Source: Ianthella basta (taxonomy: Eukaryota; Porifera; Demospongiae; Verongiida; Ianthellidae). From it: 64,000 bases of DNA. Location: positions 457,001 to 521,000 of the forward strand of contig OZ025889.1 in NCBI GenBank assembly GCA_964019415.1, given 5' to 3'. Under the pieces are notes generated by a model that saw nothing but the letters and a program-made list of their open reading frames with translations, ran no database searches and was not told the DNA's origin. The first letter of the stretch is position 1. Every line of letters starts with the position of its first letter. Below, in pieces: positions 10,310-38,950 of this stretch. Made by a program: the position numbers and the translations under genes.

Positions 10310-10900
10310 AATATGAACCAAGTGTAAAAATCATTAACTGATTAACTGGGTGGGACTGGTGAACCAGGGACAGCCCCTTCACATACATAATTGAATAGCC
10401 AGCTGGTAAACAGGTTGCTGCATGCTATGGGTATAGGTACTAATAGAAATGGTACAAGGTGCAGACACTGAAATGGGAACCAAGTGTACGCAATTAGCTG
10501 CATAGGTGGGACTGGTGAAACCAGGCCAGGCCATCATACTGTCATGTAGTTGGTCTAAACACTCTAGTAAGCAGGTGCAGAGTACACTGATAATCTAATC
10601 AAGTGTGAAAACTATTTTACTGTGTAGGCTACACTGGTGACCCAAGCCAGCCCCATCCATTCTGTAAATGGCTTCCAGCTGTCAACAGTGACTGGAGGCA
10701 GCCACTGAAATGTGAACCAGGAGTAAAAAGCGATAACCCCAACCAGTAAACAGGTGCAGAGTGCAGCTGCATGTACATTAAATATATTTATACAGAATTA
10801 ATACATACTTTATACACTACTCTGCAGGTGTAGTAAGAAATTAATGCTGTACACACACACGCCACTTAGTAGCCCCACGGTCTAGGGCAGGTTTGCTGGA
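10310..10900. other. 5' flank of HD-Cys copy 1 (duplicated flank type)
   Basis: Contains the GGTGGGACTGGTGAA, CAGCTGG and AAACAGGTGCAGAGTGCAG motifs that recur upstream of every copy of the family. They mark the duplication unit. No coding exon seen. Confidence 0.6.
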
Positions 10901-10904
10901 AGGA

Positions 10905-10912
10905 TATAAAAG
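10905..10912 (+). promoter_or_regulatory. TATA box, HD-Cys copy 1
   Basis: TATAAAAG lies 77 bp before the ATG in the cassette GCAGGTTTGCTGGAAGGATA..., which is shared by the copies. Confidence 0.8.
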
Positions 10913-10981
10913 AGAGCCTCTTCCTTTGCAAGTAACGTACCTTAACAAGTAACTTTCCTTAACCCGTGCTTGTCTACGCGT

Positions 10982-11815
10982 ATGATGAAGATGTTGTGGG
11001 GAATTGCAGTGATATTCGTCTTCACTGCTGCAAGTGTCAAGGCGGACGATGTGCACATTGATGTGATGGAAGATGAGCAGCTTGGAGGAGCATACTTCTC
11101 AAACACCTCTGATGGCTCCTGGTACATCAAATTCTCTGCCAAAGTGGATGGGGAGGAGATTTCATCCGTTTGTGAGATAGTGAGCGCGGATGATGAGGAA
11201 TTCCACGCAGAATTGACAGAACTGAAGTTTCCTTACACAGACAAAGGCAACAGGAAAATTGACCACATGCAGACCAGAGTCGTCAGCTCTGCCAGAGCCA
11301 CAGCCCAAATTCTTGACAGTTCTGAGCTTCTTCCTGCAACAGTTGATGACATAGCCGATGCTTTCTGGGACATGGCTGAAAGTTTGGCTGACAAGACTGC
11401 AGACATGGGAAAGAATGAAATTCGTTTTGCCGTGATGTACCACAGCGTCATCATCCAGGCTGCCCTGAGAATCATAAAAGGTGCCAAGAATACAAAGGAC
11501 ATCTGTGAAGTATCCCCAGACTATGAGGCCACTGGAAGCAGCTCGCTGTTCATCTGTGTGCAGGATCTGCCTCAATATCCATTGGTACCCCTCAAACGTG
11601 AACGAAGAGGTATTCTTGACTGGGTTCATAGACGCTTTGGCGGTGGAATACAAGGAGACCAACATGGATGCTGTGGCAATTACCCAGGACGCTGTTATCT
11701 TGCACTCAATATTTGCTATAGGCACGATAGAGCTTGCACCTGCTGTGCCCACTGGTGGTGTCTCTGGGGGTGCAGATGTGACTCTGGCTGCCCACGGAGC
11801 AATAAGTGCCGCTGA
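10982..11815 (+). CDS. Secreted cysteine-rich HD-Cys precursor, copy 1
   Basis: Single exon, 277 residues, family not recognised. Residues 1-21 are a clear signal peptide (MMKMLWG...ASVKA). Residues 22-205 are the pro-region, with an NTSDGS sequon, three cysteines and a helical middle (VMYHSVIIQAALRIIKGAKN). Residues 206-209 (RERR) form a furin-like site. The 68-residue tail has 12 cysteines in the order CC-x6-C-x6-C-x6-C-x-CC-x4-C-x3-C-x-C-x3-C-x5-C. Within it, CYRHDRAC resembles the His-Asp centre of secreted phospholipases A2, though with one extra residue before the second cysteine. The start is the first of two adjacent ATGs after CTACGCGT. Likely a secreted pro-peptide released by cleavage; toxin, antimicrobial or enzyme are all possible and none is shown. 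Confidence 0.85.
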   Translation: MMKMLWGIAVIFVFTAASVKADDVHIDVMEDEQLGGAYFSNTSDGSWYIKFSAKVDGEEISSVCEIVSADDEEFHAELTELKFPYTDKGNRKIDHMQTRVVSSARATAQILDSSELLPATVDDIADAFWDMAESLADKTADMGKNEIRFAVMYHSVIIQAALRIIKGAKNTKDICEVSPDYEATGSSSLFICVQDLPQYPLVPLKRERRGILDWVHRRFGGGIQGDQHGCCGNYPGRCYLALNICYRHDRACTCCAHWWCLWGCRCDSGCPRSNKCR

Positions 11816-11899
11816 GCCTATAGGCACAGTACTGGAGAATACATTACACTTTTGCGGAGAAGTGAAGAGGACAATTTTTGAAACAGTTGTTATCATTTA

Positions 11900-12980
11900 A
11901 TTACGTAAGTATTGTGTAGCTCTGAGTTTGAGTAGTACGTACATGCATACACACTTTTCTTTCATTGTGCTTAATCAAACGTTTGACTGCACATGATTAG
12001 ATCTTTTGGCTTCATGTGTAAGGATGTGAGTGAATTAAGCATTTTCCATTCATTAAATGTTTGTTGGTATATGTCACTATGCATGCAGTTGGCTAGTGTG
12101 TGTGGCATCGTGGTAGCTTTAGCAGAAGCATTAGCAACTTAGCATCAAAGAAGCAATCTCCTAGCTTGCTACCAGTATATACTCTCAAGAAACTTGAATG
12201 CCATGGAGTTCTGGTGTCATCGTTATAGTGATCATGCATCCTTAAAGGCAGCTACTCTCTGGATAGATGCTGCAGGACTGGCTGTACGACATGCCTCATG
12301 CAGTCAAAAGACTGGCTATTTTTCTCTCTAGCTCATTAATTGTGACAATTGGTGAAGAAGCCGCCAGTTAGACAACTCAAGGCATGTTCAATGTGAGCTA
12401 AATACATAGCCCTAGCTCTTATAAGTCTATATATTCTCATAGGCATATGAGAAAGAAGGTGTTGTGAAGTGGTGGAATGAGCAGCTGTTTAAATGAACCA
12501 AGTCCAATAAGTGCCTAATTGTTTTACTGTCCAGTAAACATGCAGTCACAAAGTGCAGACACTGAACCAAGCGTACAAGCAAATCTAATTTAGTTGCTGT
12601 GTAGGACTGGTGAACCCAGCCAGGGCAGGCCAGTCCCTTTGCAGTATGTGCTAGGTTTACACTCACAGGGTTCAGATAATCTAATCCAAGTGGGCAAAGA
12701 TTTTGCCATGTGGACAGCACTGGTGAGCCCTGGCCACTCCCATCCATTGTGTAAATGGATTACCAGCTGGCAAGGTACAGGTACAGGGCTCAGGCACTGA
12801 ACTGCAGACCAAGTGAACCAAGCAATAACCCCAGTAAACAGGTGCAGGGTGCAGCTATACAGTGAATACAGAATGAATTAATACACAGTTATTACACTAC
12901 CCACAGGCATATTAAAAGTTCAATTAACACAACACACATAGTCACATACATAGCCGCATGATCCAGGACAGGTTTCCTGG
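11900..12980. other. Spacer, copy 1 to copy 2
   Basis: Holds the copy 1 3' flank and a second instance of the duplicated 5' flank (from ~12420). The stretch 12110-12430 (TAGCTTTAGCAGAAGCATTA...) is repeated at 16030-16370. No gene seen. Confidence 0.6.
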
Positions 12981-12985
12981 AAGGA

Positions 12986-12993
12986 TATAAAAG
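12986..12993 (+). promoter_or_regulatory. TATA box, HD-Cys copy 2
   Basis: TATAAAAG, 65 bp before the ATG, in the shared cassette. Confidence 0.8.
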
Positions 12994-13050: not shown

Positions 13051-13968
13051 ATGAAGATGTTGTGGGGAATTGCAGTGATACTCGTCTTCACTGCTGCAAG
13101 CGTCAAGGCAGACGATGTGCTCATTGATGTGATGGAAGATGAGCAGCTTGGAGGAGCATACTTCTCCAACACCTCTGATGGCTCCTGGTACATCAAATTC
13201 TCAACCAAGGTGGAGGGGGAGGAGATTGTATCCGTTTGCGAGATAGTGAGCGTGAATGACGAGGAATTCCATGCAGAATTGACAGAGCTGAAGTTTCCTT
13301 ACACAGACAAAGGCAACAGGAAAATTGACCACATGCAGACCAGAGTCGTCAGCTCTGCCAGAGCCACAGCCCAAGTTCTTGAGAGTTCTGAGCTTCTTCC
13401 TGCAGCAGTTGATGACATAGCCGATGCTTTCTGGGACATGGCTGATAGTCTGGCCAAGAAGACTGCAGACATGGGAAAGAATAATATCCGCTTTGCTGTG
13501 ATATACCACAGCGTCATCATCCAGGCTGCCTTGAGAATCATGAAAGGTGCCAAGAATACAAAGGACATCTGTGAAGTGTCTCCAGACTATGAAGCCACTG
13601 GAAGCAGCTCGCTGTTCATCTGTGTACAGGACCTGCCTCATATGAAGCACTCACAGGTACCCCAGGAGCGCCAGCAAAGGCAAACCAGTGATTCTACATC
13701 CTGCAGTAGCGGGGGGTGCATTACGTGTTGTCAATTTCCATCTAGTTGTTCTTCTAGCTATAGGCTATGCTGTAATAGGAAATATGGTCGTGGATTACAG
13801 GGAACGGATTGGGGATGCTGCTCTAACTATCCAGGTCTGTGTTGTTATGCAAGTGATCTCTGCTACAATCATGACAGAATATGCACTTGTTGTGAATGGT
13901 TGATTTGTTTGTGGGGGTGTAAATGTGACTCTCACTGCCCACCAAGCCCTAAGTGCAACAAATCTTGA
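13051..13968 (+). CDS. Secreted cysteine-rich HD-Cys precursor, copy 2
   Basis: Single exon, 305 residues. Signal peptide (MKMLWGIAVILVF...) and pro-region are nearly identical to copy 1. The tail is of the long type: after QERQQRQ comes a seven-cysteine block (SCSSGGCITCC, RLCC), then the common 13-cysteine block with CCSNYPGLCC and CYNHDRICTCC. It ends PPSPKCNKS. In place of RERR there is only a weak dibasic-poor QERQQR region, so the processing site may differ. The first codon of copy 1's double ATG is ATT here, so translation starts at the single ATG. About 210 bases of its tail are the same as in copy 4. Confidence 0.85.
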   Translation: MKMLWGIAVILVFTAASVKADDVLIDVMEDEQLGGAYFSNTSDGSWYIKFSTKVEGEEIVSVCEIVSVNDEEFHAELTELKFPYTDKGNRKIDHMQTRVVSSARATAQVLESSELLPAAVDDIADAFWDMADSLAKKTADMGKNNIRFAVIYHSVIIQAALRIMKGAKNTKDICEVSPDYEATGSSSLFICVQDLPHMKHSQVPQERQQRQTSDSTSCSSGGCITCCQFPSSCSSSYRLCCNRKYGRGLQGTDWGCCSNYPGLCCYASDLCYNHDRICTCCEWLICLWGCKCDSHCPPSPKCNKS

Positions 13969-15225: not shown

Positions 15226-15791
15226 TGTTAAACACAGCAGAATACAGAGTACTACACTTTGCCAAGTGAAGATCTTCTATATCTTTCCTCATTCTCCAAC
15301 GTAAGCCTTCCTGACCAAACACACTGTAGCCTCGTTGACCCAATGATCCAGCTCTCTGGAAAAGAAGAAGCACATTACTGCAACCATGCCGCGACGCAAG
15401 CAGAGTTCTTGCCTATTTTCGGTCCAAACCTAGGGCTAGCGGCGGCACTGTAGTGCTGGTAAGGTCAGCGCTTCCCCTTCACATTCCATGCAGCACAGAC
15501 CTCCATGTTCGCTTTTGCGATGGCCGCAAAGGTGATAGGTAGTAGTACCTCAACCCCTCAGAAATGGTACAAGATGCAGACACTGAAATGGGAAACAAGT
15601 GTAATTAGCTGTGTAGGTGGGACTGGTGAAACCAGACCAGGCCATCATACTGTCATGTAGTTGGTCTAAACACTCACACTCAGGTGCAGAGTACACTGAT
15701 AATCTAATCAAGTGCGAAAACTATTTTACTGTGTGTAGGCTACACTGGTGAGCCCAAGCCAGCCCCATCCATTCTGTAAATGGAACACGTC

Positions 15792-16031
15792 AGTTGATGA
15801 CATAGCTGAGGCTTACTGGGACAAGGATGAAAGTTTGGCTGACAAGACTGTAGACATGGGAAAGAATGAGATCCGTTTTGCCGTGATGCACCAAAGCACC
15901 ATCATCCAGGCTGCCTTAAGAATCATGAAAGTCGCCAAGAATACAAAGGACATTTGTGAACAGTCTCCAGACTATGAAGCCACTAGAAGCAGCAAGCTGT
16001 TCATCTGTGTGCAGGATTTGCCTCAATACCA
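15792..16031 (+). pseudogene. HD-Cys copy 3, internal fragment
   Basis: Only the middle of the pro-region remains, from VDDIAEAYWD through KLFICVQDLPQY. The signal peptide and the cysteine tail are absent. The 5' side joins repeat-flank sequence and the 3' side joins directly to the TAGCTTTAGCATAAGCATTA flank, so both ends are deletion junctions. No promoter cassette precedes it. Confidence 0.85.
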
Positions 16032-16895
16032 TGGTAGCTTTAGCATAAGCATTAACAACTTAGCATCAAAGAAGCAATCTCCTAGCTTGCTACCAGTATA
16101 TACTCTCAAGAAACTTGAATGCCATGGAGCTCTGGTGTCATCATTATAGTGATCACGCATCCTTAAAGGCAGCTACTCTCTGGAGGCTGCAGGACTGGCT
16201 GTACGGCATATATACCTCAGTCAAAAGACTGGCTATCTATTTTTCTTTTAGCTCAATGACATTATAATTGTGACAATTGGTATATAAAGAAGTTAGTTAG
16301 ACAACTCAAGGCATGTTCAATGTTTGCTAAATACGTAGCCTTAGCTCTTATAAGTCTATATATTCTCATAGGCATATGAGACAGAAGGTTTGTGAAGTGG
16401 TGGAATGGGCAGCTGTTTAATGAACCAAGTCCAATAAGTGCCTAATTGTTTTACTGTCCACAAAGTGCAGACACTGCATGAACCAAGTGTACAAGCAAAT
16501 CTAATTTAGTTGTTGTGTAGGACTGGTAAACCCAGCCAGGGCAGGCCAGTCCCTTTGCAGGATGTGCTAGGTTTACACTCACAGGGTTCAGATAATCTAA
16601 TCCAAGTGGGCAAAGATTTTGCCATGTGGACAGCACTGGTGAGCCCTGGCCACTCCCATCCATTGTGTAAATGGATTACCAGCTGGCAAGGTACAGGTAC
16701 AGGGCTCAGGCACTGAACTGCTAACCAAGTGAACCAAGCAATAACCCCAGTAAACAGGTGCAGGGTGCAGCTGTACAGTGAATACAGAATGAATTAATAC
16801 ACAGTTATTACACTACCCTACAGGATGTTAAAATTTCAATTAACACAACACACATAGTCACATACATAGCCACATGGTCTGGGGCAGGTTTGCTG
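16032..16895. other. Spacer, copy 3 to copy 4
   Basis: A near-duplicate of 12110-12980, consisting of the 3' flank and then the 5' flank of the family. No gene seen. Confidence 0.65.
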
Positions 16896-16964: not shown

Positions 16965-17873
16965 ATGAAGATGTTGTGGGGAATTGCAGTGATACTCGTC
17001 TTCACTGCTGCAAGCGTCAAGGCAGACGATGTGCTCATTGATGTGATGGAAGATGAGCAGCTTGGAGGAGCATACTTCTCCAACACCTCTGATGGCTCCT
17101 GGTACATCAAATTCTCTGCCAAAGTGGAGGGGGAGGAGATTGTATCCGTTTGCGAGATAGTGAGTGTGAATGATGAGGAATTCCACTCAGAATTGACAGA
17201 ACTGAAGTTTCCTTACACAGACAAAGGTAACAGAAAGATTGACCACATGCAGACCAGAGTCGTCAGCTCTGCCAAGGCCGCAGCCCAAGTTCTTGAGAGT
17301 TCTGAGCTTCTTCCTGTAACAGTTGATGACATAGCTGAGGCTTACTGGGACATGGCTGAAAGTTTGGCTGACGAGACTGTAGACATGGGAATGAATGAGA
17401 TTCGTTTTGCTGTAATGTACCACAGCGTCATCATCCAGGCTGCCTTGAGAATCATGAAAGGTGCCAAGAACACGAAGGACATCTGTGAAGTGTCCCCAGA
17501 CTATGAAGCCACTGGAAGCAGCAAGCTTTTTATCTGCATGCAGGACCTGCCTCATATGAAGCACTCACAGGTACCCCAGGAGCGCCAGCAAAGGCAAACC
17601 AGTGATTCTACATCCTGCAGTAGCGGGGGGTGCATTACGTGTTGTCAATTTCCATCTAGTTGTTCTTCTAGCTATAGGCTATGCTGTAATAGGAAATATG
17701 GTCGTGGATTACAGGGAACGGATTGGGGATGCTGCTCTAACTATCCAGGTCTGTGTTGTTATGCAAGCGATAGTTGCTACAATCATGACAGAGAATGCAC
17801 TTGTTGTGAACCATGGCATTGTGGGCCGCTATGTAGATGTGACTCTCATTGCCCACCAAGCAGCAAGTGCTAG
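16965..17873 (+). CDS. Secreted cysteine-rich HD-Cys precursor, copy 4
   Basis: Single exon, 302 residues, 20 cysteines in the tail. The signal peptide and pro-region follow the family. The first part of the tail equals copy 2 (SCSSGGCITCC ... CCSNYPGLCCYAS), but its end (CCEPWHCGPLCRCDSHC) matches copy 5 instead, so the gene is a mosaic. The HD core reads CYNHDRECTCC. An out-of-frame ATG at 16958 precedes the chosen start, which is the first ATG leading into MKMLWG. The residue run DETVDMGMNE differs from most copies (KKTADMGKNE). Confidence 0.85.
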   Translation: MKMLWGIAVILVFTAASVKADDVLIDVMEDEQLGGAYFSNTSDGSWYIKFSAKVEGEEIVSVCEIVSVNDEEFHSELTELKFPYTDKGNRKIDHMQTRVVSSAKAAAQVLESSELLPVTVDDIAEAYWDMAESLADETVDMGMNEIRFAVMYHSVIIQAALRIMKGAKNTKDICEVSPDYEATGSSKLFICMQDLPHMKHSQVPQERQQRQTSDSTSCSSGGCITCCQFPSSCSSSYRLCCNRKYGRGLQGTDWGCCSNYPGLCCYASDSCYNHDRECTCCEPWHCGPLCRCDSHCPPSSKC

Positions 17874-18081: not shown

Positions 18082-18918
18082 TTGCTACTTATGTCAATCA
18101 ATTAATCAATCAATGCACATGAGGGTTTTATCTCCCATGTGGGAGGTCGCCCTAATACAACAGGAGTTTGTAGAAAATAATGTCATAACTCAGTTTATAA
18201 TATATAAAGTTAAGCAAAATTATTAGTCCACCTCATTCTAGGTCTTCCTCGAGGGCGCTTTCCTGGAACCTCACCATCATACACCATCTTCGTCACTCTA
18301 CCGTTGCTCATCTCTTCTAATCTTTGCTTCCACTTCTGCTGCCGTCTATTTACAAGATCCAAAACTCCCTTCTGCCTCAATCTGCCCCTAAGATCCACGT
18401 TCCTTATTCTCTCTAACCTTGATACCCCTTCTATCCATCTTAACACTCTCATTTGTGTAGCCTGTATTCTTCCCTTATGTCTTGCTTGCAGTGCCCATGC
18501 TTCACACCCGTAAGTCAGCGTGGGAACCACCGTAGCATTCACCACCCTCAGTTTTGTCCCCTTTGTCAATTCCTTCCTTCCCAACACTGTGCTTCCAATT
18601 GCCCCCACCATCCTCGACTCCATTCCTATTCTCTGCTTCACCTCACTGTCCATACTCCCATCACTACTGACCATTGTCCCAAGGTACTTCATCTCCTTTA
18701 CTTGTTCCACTCTCTCACCCTTAGCTTTGACATTACACACCTCATACTTTCTTCCAACTCTCATAACCCTCGTCTTTTGCCAGTTCGCCTTCATTCCCCA
18801 TTCATCCAATCTCTCATTCAGCTCCTGCAAATTGTATTGTAGTGCTTTCTCAGTCTCTGCCAGCATCACCAGGTCATCTGCAAATAATAATACCTCCAAC
18901 TGCCCTTGCTACTTATGT
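18082..18918 (-). mobile_element. 5'-truncated LINE with 13-bp target-site duplication
   Basis: The frame 18210-18899 encodes the end of a non-LTR reverse transcriptase: LLFADDLVMLAE (catalytic Asp pair), the thumb region, and a C-terminus with GKRPRGRPRMRW. It has no stop for 229 residues, but the 5' part is missing. The 3' tail at the left ends in ATTG tetranucleotides. The insert is bounded by TTGCTACTTATGT at 18082-18094 and 18906-18918. The same site is uninterrupted after copy 2, near 14157-14170. Clade not assigned. Confidence 0.9.
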
Positions 18919-22483: not shown

Positions 22484-23374
22484 ATGATGAAGATGTTGTG
22501 GGGAATCACAGTGATACTCGTCTTCACTGCTGCAAGTGTCAAGGCAGATGATGTGCTCATTGATGTGATGGAAGATGAGCAGCTTGGAGGAGCATACTTC
22601 TCCAACACCTCTGATGGCTCCTGGTACATCAAATTCTCAGCCAAGGTGGAGGGGGAGGAGATTGCATCTGTTTGTGAGATAGTGAGTGCGAATGACAAGG
22701 AATTTCAAGCAGAATTGACAGAACTGAAGTTTCCTTACACAGACAAAAGCAACAGAAAGATTGACCACATGCAGACCAGAGTCGTCAGCTCTGCCAGAGC
22801 CACAGCCCAAGTTCTTGAGAGTTCTGAGTTTCTTCCCGCAACAATTGATGACATAGCTGAGGCTTACTGGGACATGGCTGATAGTTTGTCTGACAAGACT
22901 GTAGACATGGGAATGAATGAAATCCGTTTTGCTGTGATGTACCACAGCGTCATCATCCAGGCTGCCTTGAGAATCATGAAAGGTGCCAAGAACATGAAGG
23001 ACATCTGTGAAGTGTCTCCAAACTATGAAGCCACTGGAAGTAGCTCACTGTTTGTCTGTGCACAGGACCTGCCTCATCGGAAGCATTCATTGGTAACCCA
23101 GGAGCCTCGGCGACGATTTGACCGTCAAATATCCTGCTGGTCTGGGTATTGTCATCCGCACTGTCGTGCAAGTATTCGTCAATACTGTAATGCTAAATGT
23201 GGTGGCGGATTGCAGGGAAGTGATCCGGGATGCTGTAGTAACTACCCAGGGCTGTGTTGTCTTGCAAACAGTTTTTGTGCATGGCATGACGGAGAATGCA
23301 CTTGTTGTGGACCGTGGCATTGTGGGCCGCTTTGCAGGTGTGCGTCTCATTGCCCGCCAAGCCGAAAGTGCTAG
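22484..23374 (+). CDS. Secreted cysteine-rich HD-Cys precursor, copy 5
   Basis: Single exon, 296 residues, 18 cysteines in the tail. Signal MMKMLWGITVILVF; pro-region as in the family, but with NDKEFQAELTE and SDKTVDMGMNE. A PRRRFDR site precedes a five-cysteine block (ISCWSGYCHPHC, QYCNAKC), then CCSNYPGLCCLANSFC, the core CAWHDGECTCC, and the end GPWHCGPLCRC. Aspartate and histidine of the core are kept. The tail opening is shared with copy 7 and the ending with copy 4. Confidence 0.85.
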   Translation: MMKMLWGITVILVFTAASVKADDVLIDVMEDEQLGGAYFSNTSDGSWYIKFSAKVEGEEIASVCEIVSANDKEFQAELTELKFPYTDKSNRKIDHMQTRVVSSARATAQVLESSEFLPATIDDIAEAYWDMADSLSDKTVDMGMNEIRFAVMYHSVIIQAALRIMKGAKNMKDICEVSPNYEATGSSSLFVCAQDLPHRKHSLVTQEPRRRFDRQISCWSGYCHPHCRASIRQYCNAKCGGGLQGSDPGCCSNYPGLCCLANSFCAWHDGECTCCGPWHCGPLCRCASHCPPSRKC

Positions 23375-23399: not shown

Positions 23400-24840
23400 A
23401 TAAGTCCCACTTGTGTGGACTGTGTGGCTTCTCAAACTAAGAACACAGTGTAGTTCCAAGTTTGACAGCATACATGCATACATACTAAATTTCCTTCCAC
23501 TACATTTTCCACACAATCAGTCATAATTTCACATTTGACTGAATGTGATTCTCTTTGCTCTCATATGTACGCTCAATATATTCCAAATGTGACCATGCAC
23601 AGTGCGTATAATTTTGCACGTCTTTGAGCACTGTGAAAAGTGAATAACTAGCATTGCCCTTACCTATAGGCCTGCTGCATACAGTGAGTCAAATGCTGGC
23701 TAGAGCATGAAAGGTATAGCTGCTATGATGACAGTGAAACATTGGCCAATAACCTGAAGATGAAGGAAACAGCTGCAGTGGTGGTCAGCCGTAAAAATGG
23801 GAATCAAAAGGAGAGCTCTGTGTGCAGATACTTGCTCCATGAAAACAATTAGACAGCTGACGACTCTGACCCTTGGAGAACTTTCCCAGTTCGCTCTTTG
23901 TATACAGTCACTGAGTGAGCATTTGCAATTGGTGCTGTAGTTTGGCCAGCTGGAGTATGTGCAAACAGTTTAAATGAACTAACAACCATGCCTAATTGTA
24001 TGCACGTGGGCTTGGCACATGGTATAATTACAAATAGCCATAAGCACACATCGTGCAGTGCAATGAGAACAATAATCTATCAGTACAATGCGTGTTGTGA
24101 ATGTGGTCACATCCAGGAAACAAGATGAACAACCATTAAATGTACCAGCATGTACTGGTATAATGAGAGTTACATTAATTTTACAGTTTACCTCAGAGAC
24201 AATGCAGCAAACACGACATGAGCAATATTGCTATCATGCCAGTGGCTATGGCAATCTAGTACTCTTTGGAAACTTTAATGTCAGTTGTAGTGTCATCATT
24301 GGTAAAAACACTTGCAAAACGGAAACAATTCTCTGGATAGGTGATGCAGGAGAAGCCACCGGTTGGGCAGTTCAAGGCATGCTCAATGCTGAATGGCTTT
24401 CTATGCCCATGATCCACCATACAGGACACAAGCTCTTGTGAAACAGTGGCACGAGCATGCAGCTGTTGATATGAACAGGCCCCACCAAGTGCCTAATCAA
24501 TTCGCTGTCTTTACATTGTCACAAGCTCTTAATGACAGGTGAACCCAGGGCCAGCACCCAGGGCATACCTAGTTGCATGGTTTACAGACCAGTGAACACT
24601 CACAGGGTTCAGATAATCTAATTCAGGTATGAACATAACTTTGCTGTGTAGGCAGCACTGGTGAACCCAGCCAGCCATCACATAGCTGTACAAACAGATT
24701 ACCAGCTGGCAAGGCACAAGGTACAAGCACTGAACTGGGAGCCAAGTGAAAGAGGAATGACCTCCGTAAAACAGACCAGTAATCAATTAATACAATATTT
24801 TATACTACTGTATATATATATATACAGGTTGATGGTCTAG
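23400..24840. other. Spacer, copy 5 to copy 6
   Basis: Flank sequences of the family (e.g. GGTTCAGATAATCTAAT at ~24607). No coding exon is supported. Confidence 0.6.
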
Positions 24841-24920
24841 AGCAAGTTTGCTGGAAGGATATATATAGAGGGCATCGTCCTGCACAAGTAGCCTACCTTA
24901 ACCAGCGCTTGTCTACACGT

Positions 24921-25190
24921 ATGATGAAGATGTTGTGGGGAATTGCAGTGATACTCGTCTTCACTACTGCAAGCATCAAGGCAGACGATGTGCTCATTGA
25001 TGTGATGGAAGATGAAGACTGGAGACCTGGGACAAACAAGGTCTGTTTTGCCGTGATGTACCACAGCGTCATCATCCAGGCTGCCTTGAGAATCATGAAA
25101 GGTGCCAAGAATACAAAGGACATCTGTGAAGTATCCCCTGACTATGAGGCCACTGGAAGCTGTACTGTGTATGCATTGAGCCTCTTTTAA
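24921..25190 (+). pseudogene. HD-Cys copy 6, internally deleted
   Basis: The signal peptide and the first ~15 pro-region residues (DVLIDVMEDE) join directly to DWRPGTNKVCFAVMYHS, removing about 110 residues. After DYEATGS the frame runs into CTVYALSLF and stops, so the whole cysteine tail is absent. The TATA box is also degenerate (TATATATA). It could still encode a 90-residue secreted peptide, but decay is the simpler reading. Confidence 0.85.
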
Positions 25191-25906: not shown

Positions 25907-26797
25907 ATGATGAAGATGTTGTTGGGAATTGCAGTGATACTCATCTTCACTTCTGCAAGTGTCATGGCAGATGATGTGCTCATTGATGTGATGGAAGATG
26001 AGCAGCTTGGAGGAGCATACTTCTCAAACACTTCTGATGGCTCCTGGTACATCAAATTCTCTGCCAAAGTGGATGGGGAGGAGATTGTATCCATTTGTGA
26101 GATAGTGAGCGCGGATGATGAGGAATTCCATGCAGAATTGACAGAACTGAAGTTTCCTTACACAGACAAAGGCAACAGAAAGATTGACCACATGCAGACC
26201 AGAGTCGTCAGCTCTGCCAGAGACACAGCCCAAGTTCTTGAGAGTTCTGAGCTTCTTCCTGCAGCAGTTGATGACATAGCTGACGCTTTCTGGGACATGG
26301 CTGACAGTCTGGCCAAGAAGACTGCAGACATGGGAAAGAATGAAATTCGTTTTGCCGTGATGTACCACAGCGTCATCATTCAGGCTGCCTTGAGAATCAT
26401 GAAAGGTGCCAAGAACACGAAGGACATCTGTGAAGTGTCCCCAGACTATGAGGCCACTGGAAGCAGCTCACTGTTCATCTGTGTGCAGGACCTGCCTCAT
26501 CTGAAGCATTCATTGATAACCCAGGAACCTCGGCGACGATTTGACCGTCAATTAGCCTGCTGGGGGTATTGCCTTCCAAATTGTCGTGCAAGTATTCGTC
26601 AGTACTGTAATGCCAATTGTGGTGACGGGTTGCAGGGAAGTGATTGGGGATGCTGTAGTAACTACCCAGGGCTGTGTTGTCTTGCAAACAGATTATGTCG
26701 ATGGCATGATGAAGCTTGCACCTGCTGTGCCCACTGGTGGTGTCTCTGGGGATGCAAATGTGACTCTCACTGCCCGCCAAGTTTTGATTGTGACTGA
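25907..26797 (+). CDS. Secreted cysteine-rich HD-Cys precursor, copy 7
   Basis: Single exon, 296 residues, 18 cysteines in the tail. Signal MMKMLLGIAVILIF...; pro-region typical. PRRRFDR site; tail opening CWGYCLPNCRASIRQYC as in copy 5; core CRWHDEACTCC; ending CAHWWCLWGCKCDSHC as in copy 1. It is therefore a mosaic of the copy 5 and copy 1 types. Ends SFDCD. Immediate neighbours are pseudogene copies on both sides. Confidence 0.85.
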   Translation: MMKMLLGIAVILIFTSASVMADDVLIDVMEDEQLGGAYFSNTSDGSWYIKFSAKVDGEEIVSICEIVSADDEEFHAELTELKFPYTDKGNRKIDHMQTRVVSSARDTAQVLESSELLPAAVDDIADAFWDMADSLAKKTADMGKNEIRFAVMYHSVIIQAALRIMKGAKNTKDICEVSPDYEATGSSSLFICVQDLPHLKHSLITQEPRRRFDRQLACWGYCLPNCRASIRQYCNANCGDGLQGSDWGCCSNYPGLCCLANRLCRWHDEACTCCAHWWCLWGCKCDSHCPPSFDCD

Positions 26798-26879: not shown

Positions 26880-28150
26880 TAAAGGGACATTGTATAGTTC
26901 CAAGTTTGACTATATGCATACATATTGCACTGTATATGTACGTACCTTTCGTCCACTACATTTTGTTCACATAATCAGTCACGATTGCATTTTTGACTGC
27001 ATGCACATTGATTTTGGCCTCATGTGTAAGGTGAATGAATCATGTTCCATTCATTGGATTTGTTGCTGGCATGTCGCTTCATTTGCAGTTCATACTCCAG
27101 CCCCATTGCATGTAGTTGATGGCTATCTAGTACAATGTGGCATCATGGCAACTTTGACACCATCAAAGAAGCAATCCCTTAGCTTGCTTCCAATTTCTCA
27201 TTCATGCATTAATCTTGGATGTCAGTTCTTAGACTAGTATCATCATTATTGATCACAATTCCCAAAGGCAGCTACTCTCCTGATGGATAGATTCTGTAGG
27301 ACTGGCTGCACAAAGACACTATACTGCACCTCATGCAGTCATGAGGCTGCATGGCTCATTGTGCCAAATGATAGCAATGAAAAGGCTACCAGTTGGGCAA
27401 CTCAAGACATGCTCTATTCTGAATGGCTTTACATTAGCATACAATCAAATGCAAGCTAGACACAGATGCTGTGAAATAGTGGCACATGCATGCAGATTTA
27501 TAGTCATAGTGTCAGAATTAATGAACCGAGTCCACTGAGAACCTAATTGATTACTGTCAAGGGTAACAGTTGCAGAGTGCAGGCATTGAATAGGATTCAA
27601 GTGCAAATTTCTTAATCAGTAGTGTGGGTGGGACTGGTGAACGCAAGGCCAGCTACATATAGCATAAAGTATAATTGGCTTAACGTCTAATACAAAGTCA
27701 CAGGGTATACGAATAATATCTCATTTAAGTGTAAAATATGCAGCACTCGTCAACCAGCTGCAGCCAGCCATCACATTACATAAATGGATTACCAGCTGGC
27801 AGACGCAGCCACTGAACTGAATTGTAAACCAAGTGGATGAAGCTATAAGCACAGTTAACAGGTACAGTGTGCAGCTGCACGTACAAGGAATAGAGGTATG
27901 CACCTACCAAATACATAGTGAATTAATATACAATACACAGGCATAATAAGAATTTAATTAACACTGTACACATAGTCACATGCAGTTAAGCTATATAACA
28001 GTCACAAGGCAAATCATATTCACTTGTTTGGGTGGGACTCATGAACCCATCCGGGGCAGACAGCCCCCAACTGGGCATGATGCACTAGGTTTACACTCAC
28101 AGGGTTCAGATAATCTAATCCATGCAAGTGTGAAAATATTTTGCCATGTG
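26880..28150. other. Spacer, copy 7 to copy 8
   Basis: Family flank sequence, including the GGTGGGACTCATGAACCCAT block near 28030 that also occurs near 22030. No gene. Confidence 0.6.
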
Positions 28151-28154
28151 GGCA

Positions 28155-28500
28155 CCCTAAGAATCATGAATGGTGCCAAGAGTACAAAGATTGTCTGTGA
28201 AGTGTCTCCAGAGTATGAGGCCATGCACTGGAAGCAGTGTGCTGTTCACCTGTGTCCGGGACCAGCCTCAATATATACTCATTGGAAGCTGTCACACGTG
28301 AATGAAGAGGCCTTTGACTCGATGAATATATAGATGATTTGGTGGTGGATTGGGTGGAAGGAACATTGGCTGTTGTAGTATTAACGGTGTTATTTTGCAC
28401 ACAGGGGGTGCAGACAGCCTGATATAGCTTGCACCTGCTGTGACCACTGGCATTGTGGACCTGCTGCAGATGCATCAATTGCCATGGTACATGTCGTGAC
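28155..28500 (+). pseudogene. HD-Cys copy 8, decayed 3' part
   Basis: Starts inside the pro-region (LRIMNGAKSTK, CEVSPEYEA) and then loses frame. Further traces of the tail (TTGGCTGTTGTAG, GCTTGCACCTGCTGTGACC) are recognisable at DNA level to ~28500. No promoter, signal peptide or intact cysteine block. Confidence 0.8.
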
Positions 28501-29660
28501 TCAGCCTAAGCACCAGAGCACAAGCCCCTCTTGTGCATGTGGACATGCGGAAGTGAACAATTGTCTGAAACTTTTTTCTTCTCATTTTAATGTACCATGT
28601 AGTTCCAAACAGCATACATGCATACATAATTTTCTTCTACTAGTTTTTCTCACATAATCAGTCATCACTTCATACAGTATTTAACTGTACACAATTGTCT
28701 TTTGGTCTCACGTAGCTAAATGTATAATCAATACATTCCAAATGTGCCACACTATGGACGTATGTCCTTGAGTACTGTAGAATGGGAAGGACTAGCAGGA
28801 GCATTGCCTTTAGCAGACTCACCAGCTACAGTGAGTTGTGCACTGAATTGTGCATGAAATTAGTTTCTATGGCAACAAGGAGTCTAAGCTCAATCTTTGG
28901 CAAACAACCAAAGATGGATGGAGTGATGGTGGTCAACTGCAAATTGGAAGCCAATTGCTCCATGCATATCTAAACACACACTCCATGAGAACACTATAAG
29001 ACAGTATACATTAATTTTGAACTGTAGGACATTTCCACCATCCCTACATCTGCCCTTGTTTTTGGAGGAAACATTTTTACGCACCTTTATATATAGCTTC
29101 CCATAATGATATTCATGAAGCTTGCACATGCAGCTTCACAAGCTTGAGCTAGACACAGATGTTGTGAAGTATTGGTACAAACAGAATTACTAGGAACCAA
29201 GTCCACCAAGTGCTTAATTGATTTACTGTCCAGGAAACAGTCACAAGGTGCAGACATTGAAAGTGAACCAAGTGCAAATCTTAATTAGTTGTGTGGGTGG
29301 GACTGGTGAACCCAAGACCAGTCCTGGCCCACATGACATTAGGTAATCGGTTTACACAGTCTAATACAAAGTCACAGGGTACAGGTAATCTAATTCAAGT
29401 GTGAAAATATGCTGCACTGGTGAACCAGCTAGCCATATCACATTACAAAATGGAATGCCAGCTGGCAGCATGCAGCCACTGAACTGAACTGCAAACCACA
29501 TGACTGAAGCTGAAAGCACAGTAAACATGGGCAGGATGCAGCTTTACAGTGAATATGACGAATTAATACATAATACACTACCCTCTACAGACATAATAAG
29601 AATTCACTAACACTGTACACACATGTCACATTTATATGTAGCCCATGGTCTATAGGGAAG
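28500..29660. other. Spacer, copy 8 to copy 9
   Basis: 3' flank of copy 8, then the 5' flank of copy 9 (~29090 on), the latter nearly the same as 25270-25840. No gene. Confidence 0.6.
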
Positions 29661-29726: not shown

Positions 29727-30554
29727 ATGATGAAGATGTTGTGGGGAATTGCAGTGATACTCATCTTCACTTCTGCAAGTGTCAAGGCAGATGATGTGCT
29801 CATTGATGTGATGGAAGATGAGCAGCTTGGAGGAGCATACTTCTCCAACACCTCTGATGGCTCCTGGTACATCAAATTCTCAGCCAAGGTGGATGGGGAG
29901 GAGATTGCATCTGTTTGTGAGATAGTGAGCACGGATGATGAGGAATTCCATGCAGAATTGACAGAACTGAAGTTTCCTTACACAGACAAAGGCAACAGGA
30001 AAATTGACCACATGCACACCAGAGTCATCAGCTCTGCCAGAGCCACAGCCCAAGTTCTTGAGAGTTCTGAGCTTCTTCCTGCGGCAGTTGATGACATAGC
30101 TGAGGCTTACTGGGACATGGCTGATAGTCTGGCCAAGAAGACTGCAGACATGGGAAAGAATGAAATCCGTTTTGCTGTGATGTACCACAGCGTCATCATC
30201 CAGGCTGCCTTGAGAATCATAGAAGGTGCCAAGTCCTCTAAGGACATCTGTGAAGTATCCCCAGACTATGAGGCCACTGGAAGCAGCTCACTGTTCATCT
30301 GTGTGCAGGATCTGCCTCAATATCCATTGGTACCCCTCAAACGTGAACGAAGAGGTATTCTTGACTGGGTTCACAGAAACCTTGGTGGCGGAAAGAAAGG
30401 AAGTGACATTGGCTGTTGTGGAAATTACCCAGGACGGTGCTATTTTGCAAACCCTATTTGTGAATGGCATGATAGAGCCTGTAGCTGCTGTCACCGCTGG
30501 TGGTGCCTGTGGGCATGCCAGTGCACCTATTGCCGCGGTACATGTGGCAAATGA
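29727..30554 (+). CDS. Secreted cysteine-rich HD-Cys precursor, copy 9
   Basis: Single exon, 275 residues, short 12-cysteine tail like copy 1. The signal peptide and pro-region are conserved; RERR at 206-209 is a furin-like site; the tail opens GILDWVHRNLGGGKKGSD. Its core is CEWHDRACSCC. The ending CLWACQCTYCRGTCGK differs from all other copies, moving the last two cysteines. The 5' flank equals that of copy 7 while the tail equals copy 1, again suggesting exchange. Confidence 0.85.
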   Translation: MMKMLWGIAVILIFTSASVKADDVLIDVMEDEQLGGAYFSNTSDGSWYIKFSAKVDGEEIASVCEIVSTDDEEFHAELTELKFPYTDKGNRKIDHMHTRVISSARATAQVLESSELLPAAVDDIAEAYWDMADSLAKKTADMGKNEIRFAVMYHSVIIQAALRIIEGAKSSKDICEVSPDYEATGSSSLFICVQDLPQYPLVPLKRERRGILDWVHRNLGGGKKGSDIGCCGNYPGRCYFANPICEWHDRACSCCHRWWCLWACQCTYCRGTCGK

Positions 30555-30619: not shown

Positions 30620-31730
30620 CTTTCTTGTCATTTAAAGGAACATTGTGTAGTACCAAGTTGACTGCATGCATACACAATCACTCATACTTTCTTCCATATA
30701 TTTTTCTCACTTTATCAGTCATCATTTTGTTTCTGACTGCATTGTATCTTTGATCTCATGTGTAGGACGAATGAATCATGTTCCATTTATTGGATTTGTT
30801 GCTGGTATGTCACTTTGTGTGCAATTTGTGCTTCCAATTGCATTCAGTTAGCTATAGTGCATGTGGCACCACGGCAGTTTGATACTGTATATGGAGTGAA
30901 CACCTTGGCAGCCATTTTGAATCTACGAAAAATGTACGGGACGCATATAGGAAGTATGCACGGGACCTCCTCTACAGGACGCACTACACCTCCCTGGACC
31001 CTCCTACATGGCTTGCCGAAGGCGGGCATTGCAGCTAGTACACCTATAAGTCATGCATCCTGGGCCAGTTCTCTCCTTCAGCTCACTGCATGTACTGGAT
31101 GCATGATGAAGAAGCCACCATTCAGTGGAGCAACTCAAGGAATGCTCAATGCTGAACTGCTTTCCACTTGCTCACACTCATATGCATGAGACCCAAGCTG
31201 TTGTGAAATAGAAGAATGAGCAGCTGTTGAAATGAACCAAGCCCACTAAGTGCCAATTGATTACTGTCCTGTAAACAGTCACAAGGTGAAGGCATTGAAA
31301 TGTAAACAAAGTGTAAAGCAAATCTTAATGAGTTGTTTGGGTGTGATTGATGAACCAAGGCCAGCCCGTAGCATTGTATACACTTGGCTTACAGATCAGT
31401 AAGCAGTCGCAAGGTACAGGTAATCTAATCCAAGTCGAGATCTGAAAAATATGAAAACATTTGCTGTGTGGGCAGCACTGGTGAACCCAAGGCCAGCCAA
31501 CACATTATGGTAAATGGACTACCAGCTGGTAACAGGCTCTGAACTGTGAACCAAGAGAAAGATGCACCAATCCCAGTTTATACATACCAGTAAACAGGTG
31601 CAGGGTGTAGCTATACAGTGCATGAATACATAATGAATTAGTACATAATTATTACACTACCCTACAGGTATATTGAATATTCAATAAACACTGCACACAA
31701 AATATGTCTTGTATGTAGCTGCATGGTCTG
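30620..31730. other. Spacer after copy 9
   Basis: Family flank sequence with no supported gene. A 5' flank is recognisable from ~31200. Confidence 0.6.
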
Positions 31731-31731
31731 G

Positions 31732-31835
31732 AGGGATACAAAAGAGAGCGATATCCTGCACATGTATAGCCTATAACTACCTGAACCAGAGCTTGTCTAC
31801 AGGCTTAATGAAAGATGTTGTGTGTGGAATTAAAG
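31732..31835 (+). pseudogene. HD-Cys copy 10, promoter and first codons only
   Basis: Cassette with GGATACAAAAGAGAG (damaged TATA), then GAGCTTGTCTACAGG and an ATG followed by AAAGATGTTGTGTGTGGAAT, matching the start of the family with small insertions. It breaks off at ~31835 into ERCC5-duplicon intron sequence. Confidence 0.75.
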
Positions 31836-34090
31836 TGTTGCCCCACAAACAAAGTCCCACAAACACAACAATGTCTCACAAACACCATAGCAAGCATGGT
31901 AGGCTACTGTCCATATGGAAGTGTAAGAGCCCAGGGGCTATTGCAGATAAGTAACAAGTGCCTATCACATGTTCTTGTACTGTCATATCTTGTTTACACT
32001 CATTGTGAAAGATAACACTAAGTGACCCCCACCATATGCATTAGTGAGATATAAGTGAGTATCTATTCGTTGGTTGCTCACCATGTATGTATGTACTGGA
32101 GTATAGTAAGTGGGTAAATGGGTGTTGTCTGACTGAAGAACTCACCTACAGTACACTATAATTACTCCAACACTTAGTGGACTTACTGGCAGAGAATGTC
32201 TGCGGACAACAACCAATTCAAGTGTTTTGTGAAGCTCAATTGCATGAGCTCCGCTGACTTGTGAGTGAACCCATGTTGCATGCATGCATACGTATGGCAC
32301 GAAGTGCCTGAGATTGACCAGTGCACCAAATGGTCATGAACAGCACACATGGATAGCAATAAACACATATTGTGTAGTGCAATGTAATCAAATTATATAT
32401 TAAATACAATATATTAATTATGCCATTTTGTGAATATGTATACATTCGGGAAAGAAAATAATCAACATGCAATTAAAAATAATGTACCAAACTTCAATTA
32501 CTGTTGTGAATTTATTGAATGCTTTCACTTTTTTCCACATCCCATTCTTGGTCACTGGTAGTTCCCTCTTCTCACAAGGGAATTATTGATATCAGATCTT
32601 GCTTTTTGCCACGCATTCTGCTGCTCCCTCTGCCACGCCTTCTGTTACTCCCTCTGCCACGCCCTCTGTTACCCCCTCTTCCACTCCCTTTGCCACACCC
32701 CCTGCCCCTGCCTTGCCTTTGTGGAGTAGCCAATGTTGCACGGTCCCCTACCATGTCTCCTGAATGCATTATGACATCACTTCAGATAAGCATTTGTAGG
32801 AATTCATCAGACCTCCATTTTGACCACACCCATTGAAGCATCACCACACCCCCTACCTCCCACAGCCTACCAACTTCCTCTGCCTGCCAGTGAGTCTCTT
32901 GTCAGCAGCCGACAGCTGGGACCCCTCCTCATGTCACGCCCTACAGAGATGAACGCCACCACATCACACTAGCAGTGCAAGAATACCAATGCAGGCAGCC
33001 ATATTTTGTATTGAACATTATGTAAAAGGATGGAAGGGCAGTGTGTGCATATGCTGCATGTGAATGTAACTCTTCTTATGTAAACTAGTTGTGCACAATG
33101 TGTTCTGCAGATGCCAGCCGACTCACATAAAATGTCATGAACAAAGTCCCATGTACAGACACTATAGCAAGCATGGTAGGCTACTGTCCATGGAAGTGTA
33201 AGAGCCCAGGGGCTATTGCAGACTGACGCAGCGATGAGTGATAAGTGCTTATCACATGTTGTTGTACTGTCGTATCTTGTTTACACTCATTGTGAAAGAT
33301 AACACTAAGTGACCCCCACCATTAGTGAGATAAGCGAGTATCTGATCACTGGTTGCCATCATTAGGGCTTGTTGCCCCCAGCCTCCTGAGACACCATTGG
33401 TGTAGAAGGTTGATTGGTGTAAACTTTCCGGTGATTAACCTTTGTCACCCAATCCTCAGCAGTGGATCATTTGCTACAAATTGTCCTCTATAAGTGAGTG
33501 TCTGTTTGTTGGCTTTTGTCAGCTACCCACCTAAATGACTGTGGGACCTGCTGGACACTCACCATGTACGTATGTGCCAGAGTGGTAAGTGGGTAAAATG
33601 GGTAATGTCTGACTGAAGAACTCACCTACAGTACACTATAATACTCAAACACTTAGTGGACTTACTGGCAGAGAATGTCTGCAGACAACAACCAACTCAA
33701 GTGACATTGCGTGTGGTAGTCTGGTCCCTGCTGGCCTCTTACTGTGTGTACTGTAATCCTATCATGACATGCACAGTGCCTGTAAGAGCCCAGGGAGTAT
33801 TATATCACACCATGAGTAAGAGCCCCAGTCAGTCTAACACATGATGACAGAATGGCAGTAAGAGCCCCAGTCAGTCTAACACATGATGACAGAATGGCAG
33901 TAAGAGCCCCAGTCAGTCTAACACATGATGACAGAATGGCAGTAAGAGCCCCAAGGGCAATACATATACATACGTACCTAAACTTGTGAAGTACTTGTAA
34001 CCCTTCCCCAAGAAAGTCCCTCCAAACCTCTACCGCCTTGACAACCCCAACACCCTGCACTCTCTCCCATTCATACACATTCACCCAAAC
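31836..34090 (-). pseudogene. ERCC5 3' duplicon B (broken)
   Basis: Contains a partial RG-rich tail of the last exon (~32523-32765, reading GRGRGCGKGSGRGG), exon 11 (~32868-32945) and exon 10 (~33975-34085, reading GVQ..-like VQGVGVVKAVEVWRDF). Exons 12 and 13 and most of exon 14 are deleted. The segment 31850-32230 repeats intron 10 sequence already present in duplicon A, so B is itself rearranged. Confidence 0.85.
33800..33955. repeat. 42-bp minisatellite in ERCC5 duplicon B
   Basis: About four units of the same repeat as 20880-21250. Confidence 0.9.
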
Positions 34091-34279: not shown

Positions 34280-36890
<2,611 letters not shown>

Positions 36891-36995
36891 TTGAGAGAGT
36901 CCCTATAAAAGGTATATTAAGAATTCAATAAACACTGTACATACACATGCATCACGTGTGTAGCCCCACAGTCTAGGGCAGGTTTGCTGGAAGGA

Positions 36996-37003
36996 TATAA
37001 AAG
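36996..37003 (+). promoter_or_regulatory. TATA box, HD-Cys copy 11
   Basis: TATAAAAG, 60 bp before the ATG, in an intact cassette. Confidence 0.8.
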
Positions 37004-37055
37004 AGAGCATTGTCCTGCACAAGTAGCTTACCTTAGCCAGCGCTTGTCTACACGT

Positions 37056-37853
37056 ATGATGAAGCTGCTGTGGGGAATCGCAGTGATACTTGTCTTCACT
37101 GCTGCAAGCGTCAAGGCGGGCGATGTGCTCATTGATGTGATGGAAGATGAGCAGCTTGGAGGAGCATACTTCTCCAACACCTCTGATGGCTCCTGGTACA
37201 TCAAATTCTCAGCCAAGGTGGAGGGGGAGGAGATTGTATCTAGTTGTGAGTTGTGGAGCAGAAGTGAAGGCTATGTTGTTGAATTAACAGAACTGAAGTT
37301 CCCTTACAGCAACAAAGATAGCAGAAAAATTGACCACATGCAGATCAGAGTCATCAGCTCTGCCAGGGCCACAGCCCAAGTTCTCAAGAATTCTTGGTTT
37401 CCTGCAACAGCTGCTTGCATGGCTGACATTTACTGGGACATGGCCTACACTCTGGCCAAGAAGACAGGGGACCTGGGACAAAACCAGGTCCGTTTTGCTG
37501 TGATGTACCACAGCATCATCATCCGGGCTGCCTTGAGAATCATGAAAGGCGCGAAGAAGATGAGGGACATCTGTGAAGTGTCTCCAGACTATGAAGCCAC
37601 TGACAGTAGCTTGCTGTTCATCTGTGCACAGGACTTGCATGACTTGAAACATTATCTGTTACCTCATGAGAGAAGATTTGTTCGTCATACAGAAGATGAT
37701 GAATCATCTGCTAGTGGTTCATATTGCTGTAACTACCCACGATACTGTCAACCAGCATTGATATGGTGTGGGAGAATACAGGCCAAATTTGTAAGGCATG
37801 GTATCTATTTTGAAGTCTGGTGGTGCCTTGTGATCTGGGTTAGTGATTGCTAG
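37056..37853 (+). CDS. HD-Cys precursor, copy 11, divergent tail
   Basis: Single exon, 265 residues. The signal peptide (MMKLLWGIAVILVF) and early pro-region match the family. From ~residue 66 it diverges (SSCELWSRSEGYVVELTE; PATAACMADIYWDMAYTLAK). The tail keeps only SYCCNYPRYC and lacks the HD core; it ends in a tryptophan-rich WWCLVIWVSDC, with DNA that still resembles CACTGGTGGTGTCTCTGG of other copies, so frameshifts probably altered the reading. The promoter is intact. It may be a decaying copy or a changed paralogue. It sits between duplicon C and the intact ERCC5. Confidence 0.75.
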   Translation: MMKLLWGIAVILVFTAASVKAGDVLIDVMEDEQLGGAYFSNTSDGSWYIKFSAKVEGEEIVSSCELWSRSEGYVVELTELKFPYSNKDSRKIDHMQIRVISSARATAQVLKNSWFPATAACMADIYWDMAYTLAKKTGDLGQNQVRFAVMYHSIIIRAALRIMKGAKKMRDICEVSPDYEATDSSLLFICAQDLHDLKHYLLPHERRFVRHTEDDESSASGSYCCNYPRYCQPALIWCGRIQAKFVRHGIYFEVWWCLVIWVSDC

Positions 37854-37859
37854 AGACAG

Positions 37860-38950
37860 GCGCTAGTACAAACACGACAAAGACTACTATTGCTAGAATT
37901 TGCCCTTTGCATGTGTTCTGCCCACTTAAATGACGTGATTCAAGTATGACCACCTAGCTACATGTTGCACTGTTTCCACTATCCTTTTTTTCATGTAAGC
38001 TCAATATAATGTGCATGTGATCCCATGATATTTCATTGTGTGCATATTATTAGTATCAAATAATATTATCTTGCATGACTTCAAAGTGCACAGTTATATT
38101 ATTATACAGCCTTACATAGGGATCAGTCGTATATAGAATGTTTTCATATTATTTCGCTGCGTATAATTATTGCATGCATGCATCGACCTTATAAATAAAC
38201 ATAAGTTATAAGTTTTTTAGAGTTATAAAGGTAGAATCTATAGAAGTTACCGTACTGATCAGTTGTTTTAAGCGTATGCGCTTATAGCTCTGGCAGGAAG
38301 TAAATATGCGCCCAATAAAGGATGAACGAATGGTTCAAGAAATTATAATGATATGCTAACGTCATATTAAGATGTCCGCCGCGTGCATAAGTGAGTTCTC
38401 ATTAAAGCGTTCTTTTTACTAGCTTATAGTCATTATTACACTTCAGGCAAGTGACTAGGTTACCAGGTAGTCCTTTTATGTGCCTAATAGAATGGGTGAA
38501 TCCCTGAAATCACTATGCGCCTAACAATTAGGGTGAAAAACTGGTAAAGAAATGTGCGCTTAACAGAGGTTATGCGCGCTTATAAGAGGGGTGCACTTAA
38601 CAACCGATCAGTACAGTATACTATTATACATAGCTTAGATCACATCTATTGTGGTACTTTGCAGTGCTTTGTGAAGTTTGCTTGAACTACATTACTTGGA
38701 AGTGAACCCATGTTTCATGCATACGTATGGCATCACATTCAAGAATAAGCCTGAGATTGGCCAGCACATGCACCAAATGAACAGCACACATGGTTAGCAA
38801 TAAGCACATGTCATGTAGTGCAATATAATCAAATTATATATTAAAATATAATATAATTATTCATTATTTGGGACAGGAATGTATACATTCAGGAAAGAAG
38901 ACAATCAACATGCAATTAAAAATAATGTACCAAAATTCAATTATTGCTGC
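37860..38950. other. Spacer between copy 11 and ERCC5
   Basis: No gene. Contains one terminal-inverted-repeat element (38252-38614) and, from ~38640, the 3' flank of ERCC5 that is also present in the three duplicons. Confidence 0.7.
38252..38614. repeat. MITE-like element with ~20-bp terminal inverted repeats
   Basis: Left end GTACTGATCAGTTGTTTTAA; right end TTAACAACCGATCAGTAC, an imperfect reverse complement. No coding capacity inside the 363 bp. Confidence 0.7.

Follow-up and report, generated by a model that had tools for sequence, protein, structure and literature searches.

What are the tandemly arrayed secreted proteins encoded at this sponge locus, and where did they come from? The locus lies in a 64,000-nucleotide (nt) stretch of the Ianthella basta genome (positions 457001-521000 of contig C22, accession OZ025889.1, in a genome of 209 Mb and 96 contigs), hereafter called the window. 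On its + strand, at 10.9-37.9 kb, seven open, single-frame, intronless genes are accompanied by four remnants, an arrangement first put forward in an earlier note made from the DNA alone and borne out by the open frames and by tblastn and blastn. The common TATA cassette, signal peptide, pro-region and basic site claimed there occur in 7/7 genes, whereas the expected tail of 12-20 cysteines holds for genes 1-6 and fails for gene 7, with 6 Cys and no Cys core. By the tests run, the array proteins belong to no named family: Pfam, NCBIfam and PDB sequences offered none for the pro-region, as the note had anticipated, nor for the Cys tail. The family had been regarded as undescribed; it is indeed without a name but not isolated, both of its parts being homologous to lipoproteins of Bacteroidota. 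On balance, we think that the array is a domesticated eukaryotic version of a Bacteroidota two-domain lipoprotein, itself toxin-like and seemingly paired with a membrane immunity protein.

Homology of both protein parts with Bacteroidota lipoproteins

In the sponge proteins, a plain signal peptide that ends in VKA-DD and has no lipobox-like Cys precedes a pro-region of 175 residues (188-193 including the basic site). An R..R pattern, which is a loose one, lies within 75 residues past the pro-region in 7/7 window genes and, counted without a background rate, in 36/43 window and database proteins, three more without the anchor motif being left unscored. The C-terminal Cys domain, GCC.NY.G.C...C..HD, is present in 6/7 window genes (not gene 7). 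A profile search of the tail, proposed in the earlier note, gave no named family, yet it led to the Bacteroidota relatives. It retrieved 17 short proteins at E-values (E) of up to 10, including 15 at E<=1.4e-5 (best 6e-16), and a scan of GTDB with an alignment of 15 of the short proteins yielded 35 stretches fitting the pattern; 21 were confirmed, with 14 outside that count, and 21/21 are Bacteroidota by their titles.

From these 21 loci, 23 bacterial genes were read and 15 aligned, 12 of them encoding 308-359 amino acids (aa), one 382 and two 456-461. The alignment omits L035, which runs off a contig end, the duplicate L040 and the short L045 and L049; it also omits L038 and the two L043 genes for their divergent N-domain, and L048, which gave no match to that domain. 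At least 90% of the 15 rows have a lipobox-like Cys near the N-terminus, as judged from the alignment without a predictor.

Full-length sponge and bacterial profiles were aligned by hhalign over 228 columns with a probability of 99.3 (E 1.1e-20). For the pro-region alone against the bacterial N-domain, the score was 33.5 (E 1e-4), a value reached by 0/300 column shuffles (maximum 21.7), and a hidden Markov model (HMM) of the bacterial N-domain picked up 40/40 of the sponge pro-regions with an E cut-off of 10; its best E was 3.7e-7, whereas none of 2000 shuffled decoys did better than 0.22. By hhalign, HMM, shuffles and decoys alike, the sponge pro-regions meet the bacterial N-domain in the pattern H..S/AI...R...C...P...F.CQ.D. 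In the tail core, 11 positions (G, C, C, Y, G, C, C, H, C, C, C) are occupied in 61/61 rows and the D in 59/61, the rows having been picked by GCC..Y.G, which is part of this core; they do not include gene 7, the weak P0061 and P0062, or L040, which is a duplicate. At the level of sequence profiles, these comparisons show that the two parts of the sponge protein are homologous, in the same order, to those of the bacterial lipoprotein, the pro-region to its N-domain and the tail to its C-terminal Cys domain.

This result bears on the view that the array is an animal-born defence or venom family, cathelicidin- or conotoxin-like, whose bacterial likeness reflects convergence or a transfer from animals to bacteria. 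Such an origin would suit the signal peptide, the RxxR site, the variable tails and the tandem array, and is consistent with an unrooted tree; it is hard to square with collinear homology in both parts, with 21 loci spread over several Bacteroidota families as opposed to one sponge clade, and with the lack of introns, and we regard it as rather improbable. The earlier note had itself pictured venom or defence peptides, a reading whose defence or toxin role stays plausible but which misses the bacterial kinship. Cathelicidins join a conserved pro-region to unrelated C-terminal peptides, and in this the array resembles them; here, however, no sequence relation was found, the homologues are bacterial and introns are absent. 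No match to a cathelin- or cystatin-type pro-domain was obtained with the seven genes in Pfam (E<=10) or among PDB sequences.

The PDB sequence search gave a lone match, 2r39 (E 0.057), that was lost when a profile was used, while a weak Pfam match to PF21509 on P0029 (E 0.009) and PT repeat matches on P0031, P0033 and P0039 (above cut-off in P0039) were set aside. A literature search found no description of the family by title or abstract start, many subscription papers being outside its scope. In bacteria the genes are sparse, with matches in 2/395 genomes of the phylum, one of them the source genome and the other holding a tail fragment. Viral contigs gave 21 pattern matches and no confirmed relative, and the L031 protein, the only query used by tblastn against plasmids and phages, had no match there at E<=1e-3. 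Two weak matches, L059 and L060 (G001, G002), were judged by eye to be unrelated proteins, namely a different sort of lipoprotein and a tetratricopeptide-repeat-like protein, and were rejected.

A candidate toxin-immunity layout in the bacterial loci

A small transmembrane (TM) open reading frame (ORF) follows 16/23 bacterial genes, a count that includes the duplicates L039 and L040, compared with 2/188 other ORFs of at least 150 aa at the same loci. It was defined as 80-125 aa with at least two TM segments by a simple hydropathy count, within 200 nt and on the same strand. These ORFs have two to four predicted TM segments, usually three, and by eye their products can be sorted into about two groups of sequences. 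Five of the TM proteins had no match above the curated cut-off in two libraries; that of L031 met PF20154 below cut-off (E 0.0012), which was set aside. By blastp, no neighbour besides the gene itself recurs in more than 5/21 loci. This layout suggests that the Bacteroidota lipoprotein may be a toxin and that immunity to it may come from the TM protein.

The comparison with BcpT of Bacteroidales is one of description, not of sequence. As presented in the part of the source consulted (PMC9308784), BcpT is a signal peptidase II (SpII) lipoprotein toxin of 499 aa, with an N-part suggested to aid folding and a C-terminal fragment of ~300 residues taken as active after proteolysis, and the gene for its immunity protein BcpI, a 57-aa lipoprotein, lies just downstream. 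The SpII lipoprotein, the division into N-part and C-part and the small downstream gene recur in the present loci, in which the partner is instead a 3-TM protein. At L048:7143-10000, adjoining genes are 90% alike over their first 242 residues and then run into differing Cys-containing tails, of which only one has the Cys core, with a 3-TM ORF of its own after each gene; of the 2/188 background matches, one is due to the second of these genes. This resembles the exchange of C-terminus and partner gene in polymorphic toxin systems, as far as the part of PMC3482391 consulted describes them, and was seen here at one locus only.

The kinship with bacteria could be real without the proteins being toxins. 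They might be secreted disulphide-rich enzymes or ligands (e.g. a lipase, used in feeding or symbiont handling), in which case the TM ORF would encode a partner in the membrane and confer no immunity. A role in catalysis or in metal binding is suggested by the H, which never varies within the Cys scaffold, and by the D, which almost never does, the TM ORF is absent after 7/23 genes, and lipase chemistry is made conceivable by Tox-PLA2 with its CxxHxxxYxN motif (PMC3482391, in the part consulted), which shares the C-x-x-H core, although Y at H-plus-4 there is replaced here by C in 60/61 rows and by F in one. Conflict genes are nevertheless a better fit to the sparse spread, the exchange of tail and TM partner at L048 and the two TM-partner groups, and we consider an enzyme or ligand that is not a toxin unlikely, if well worth keeping in mind.

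The sponge host and the proposed direction of transfer

Contig C96 of the same genome (21,233 bp, of which 20,000 bp were read) is mitochondrial, has TGA within COX1 and contains, by eye, atp9, nad4, nad6, nad3, nad4L, cox1, cox2, atp8, atp6, cox3, nad2, nad5 and cob. To our knowledge, mitochondrial atp9 is known among animals only from sponges, and we take the order atp9-nad4-nad6-nad3-nad4L-cox1 to be that of demosponges. By these two features, the host of the array is a demosponge; a silicatein-like DNA pattern gave 0 matches. Intronless genes with bacterial kin might also point to bacterial contamination or a symbiont contig. The array, however, sits in a 6.2-Mb contig with ORFs for MCM, Fibrinogen_C, ankyrin and reverse transcriptase alongside it in the window, possesses TATA cassettes and remnants and has a further copy on an 11.3-Mb contig, and the GC content at third codon positions is 0.49-0.53 in its seven genes as opposed to 0.21-0.47 in five bacterial ones, all of which makes contamination a negligible prospect.

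A tree of 30 proteins splits completely into its 14 sponge and 16 bacterial members, which are separated by ~5 changes per column. Transfer from bacteria to the sponge is favoured because the bacterial spread is wide and sparse, introns are lacking and the operon is toxin-like, and the array probably arose by horizontal acquisition of an interbacterial-type toxin. Bacterial ancestry may also explain the absence of introns better than high expression, of which the earlier note had taken it as a sign. In the scenario that we propose, the lipoprotein gene would have passed from bacteria to a sponge ancestor, in which the lipobox gave way to a signal peptide, RxxR was added, no TM partner was retained and tandem duplication followed. 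The pro-region would serve as a folding or inhibitory carrier, and a furin-type protease would cut RxxR and free the disulphide-rich tail with its GCC-N-Y-x-G-x-C...C-x-x-H-D core. Once freed, the tail would target bacterial envelopes, perhaps working on lipids as a small enzyme; a membrane target is suggested because the bacterial partner is a membrane protein. Gene conversion would keep the carrier uniform, while tails would diverge or be exchanged to give varied effectors. Within 1.5 kb 3' of any of the seven sponge genes, no ORF of 70-140 aa with at least two TM segments was found.

There is a precedent for such domestication. The dae genes encode cell-wall amidase toxins of a type VI secretion system family that were domesticated by ticks, mites and others, and are secreted without an immunity partner. 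The array would be alike in being an interbacterial-type toxin gene in an animal, secreted and without such a partner, and would differ in its Cys-rich lipoprotein C-domain, the N-domain kept as carrier, the RxxR site, the tandem array and the exchanged tails. The fuller proposal, that an ancestral demosponge took up a Bacteroidota toxin-immunity system and made of it a tandem antibacterial arsenal, processed by furin, with one carrier and exchangeable payloads, is advanced here tentatively, as a real possibility.

Several observations weigh against a captured toxin. The hhalign probability for the pro-region alone is weak (57), and neither direction nor donor is shown because the tree is unrooted; its central branch is very long (4.18 + 0.81 about the midpoint root), several end branches are long and the bootstrap is unsettled. 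A small TM ORF is missing after the 7/23 bacterial genes of L033, L038, L041, L043 and L047 (5/21 loci). The tail stands on a clearly different N-part in L048 only: L038 and L043, at first taken to carry other N-domains, were dropped from that count since the common N-domain profile does match them weakly, with E from 1e-4 to 4e-3 as against 0.036 for the best decoy, and L048, with no match, stands. An N-domain without the tail was not found in 397 genomes of one bacterial family, in which up to seven candidates were scored per genome and the four that matched were L031, L050, L041 and L047 again. The acidity of the pro-region in genes 1-6 (net charge -12 to -18, with tails at -2 to +5) is not kept in the database relatives described below (-12 to +3), several of whose tails are acidic (to -15).

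The last of these points concerns phospholipase A2 (PLA2), of which the HD dyad and C-x-C-D had suggested that the tail might be an example. The PLA2 signature PS00118 reads C-C-x-x-H-x-x-C. It occurs in 0/61 tail rows, and Pfam at E up to 10 gave no PLA2 family match for 21 tails and 10 short relatives, so that this candidate was rejected. Genes 4 and 6 lack the Asp of C-x-C-D, as does the mini-gene described below, and the divergent copy on contig C5 is without C-x-C at that place.

Conserved pro-region and diverged tails in the sponge

All seven genes and four remnants are on the + strand, with coding sequences counted from the conserved MKM/MKL start. Gene 1 (10985-11815) has RERR and a 12-Cys tail after signal peptide and pro-region, and gene 2 (13051-13968) has RQQR and a 20-Cys tail with an extra N-terminal Cys segment, as does, similarly, gene 3 (16965-17873; 20 Cys). 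Genes 4 (22487-23374) and 5 (25910-26797) each have an 18-Cys tail, and gene 6 (29730-30554), with 12 Cys, shares its linker with gene 1; after RxxR, genes 1-6 thus count 12, 20, 20, 18, 18 and 12 Cys. In gene 7 (37059-37853) an intact pro-region is followed by an acidic SASGS stretch and 6 Cys, and reading by eye detected no Cys core in any of the three frames, so that its tail is either degenerate or of another kind. The paralogues match gene 2 at E down to 1e-189, a likeness beyond chance. Searches by tblastn and blastn with the seven genes located the remnants: late pro-region at 15790-16041 (best tblastn E 2e-39), promoter and signal fused to late pro-region with the middle gone at 24832-25172, an upstream bit with late pro-region and tail pieces in a broken frame at 27936-28746, and promoter and 5' end only at 31662-31837, the last matched by blastn and not by tblastn.

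TATAAA lies 63-80 nt 5' of the ATG in 7/7 genes, within the common cassette GGATATAAA. In gene 1 the cassette occupies 10902-10917 on the + strand (GGATATAAAAGAGAGC), and in genes 2-7 TATAAA is found on the same strand at 12986, 16902, 22424 (variant TATAAATAAGAGC), 25847, 29667 and 36996. Elsewhere in the window, an RVT_1 reverse transcriptase fragment lies between genes 3 and 4 of the array (18210-18899, - strand), and a minisatellite of coding length is open in several frames at 7850-8723 (ELAGSCHRPV / GASWFVPPAG repeats). ARAGORN made four calls without an assigned tRNA at 62950-63746, and Rfam at gathering score found nothing in the window.

The earlier note had considered the peptides fast-evolving. 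Pooled over the 15 pairs of genes 1-6, the proportions of synonymous (pS) and non-synonymous (pN) differences are 0.175 and 0.046 in the pro-region (dN/dS 0.24) and 0.603 and 0.261 in the tail (dN/dS 0.26), the latter ratio being weak evidence because tail pS is near saturation. Positive selection on the tails of genes 1-6 is therefore not supported by dN/dS; the tails are, however, far more diverged synonymously, by a factor of 3.4. Nucleotide identity averages 0.88-0.98 along the pro-region as opposed to 0.58-0.75 along the tail region, and in the closest pair, genes 2 and 3, tail dN/dS is 0.66 (6 synonymous and 18 non-synonymous changes). We read this pattern as homogenisation of the pro-region, or as old tails carried on younger carriers.

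Other copies occur outside the window. About 0.9 Mb away, a mini-gene (C22:1392604-1392828; L019:4605-4829) has the TATA cassette, leader and signal peptide followed by the Cys tail, with no pro-region between them, and on the 11.3-Mb contig C5 a divergent copy (C5:6085078-6085893; L008) has its own TATA cassette and a signal region in another frame. Homology searches returned 36 and then 45 proteins, 6 of them from the window. The 39 others, which we take to come from related sponges, show BLAST identities to gene 2 of 48-62% (one 40%); they are predicted proteins, so some tails may be mis-called. Their pro-regions are alike, and 16 of the first 30 non-window proteins fall into the Cys-rich class, aligned with the 6 window tails; other tails are cationic helical, alternating-strand or Pro-Thr-linked, and some are truncated. 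P0011 and P0024 are identical at 174/175 pro-region positions and have unrelated tails.

Several features of these tails were observed in passing. An acidic run and then SGSG or similar follows the basic site in P0023, P0024, P0026, P0030, P0031, P0033, P0035, P0036 and P0039 as well as in gene 7, and resembles a glycosaminoglycan attachment site. In P0013, P0015, P0016, P0019 and P0021, strongly cationic and partly amphipathic linkers separate RxxR from the Cys core, and the tails have net charges of +8 to +15, compared with -15 to +5 in the other 11 Cys-rich relatives. Seven of nine tail or linker stretches exceed 95% of 1000 shuffles for amphipathicity at a helix or strand angle, which is suggestive at most, as the stretches were picked by eye and two angles tried for each. 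P0049, P0052 and P0056, which lie on contigs of up to 1.5 Mb and perhaps come from other animals, are further short precursors that look secreted and share this Cys core, and P0051 joins the start of a sugar-nucleotide transferase to the Cys core, maybe through an assembly artefact.

If the payloads are indeed exchangeable, Cys-rich, amphipathic-strand and cationic-helical tails on one carrier would make up an intronless, modular repertoire of innate effectors. The findings point to a new Bacteroidota toxin-immunity family and to an animal that may use such a weapon, with the carrier kept and the payload diversified. How a sponge polices a dense microbiota could thereby be put to the test with a single small protein and a single candidate immunity gene.

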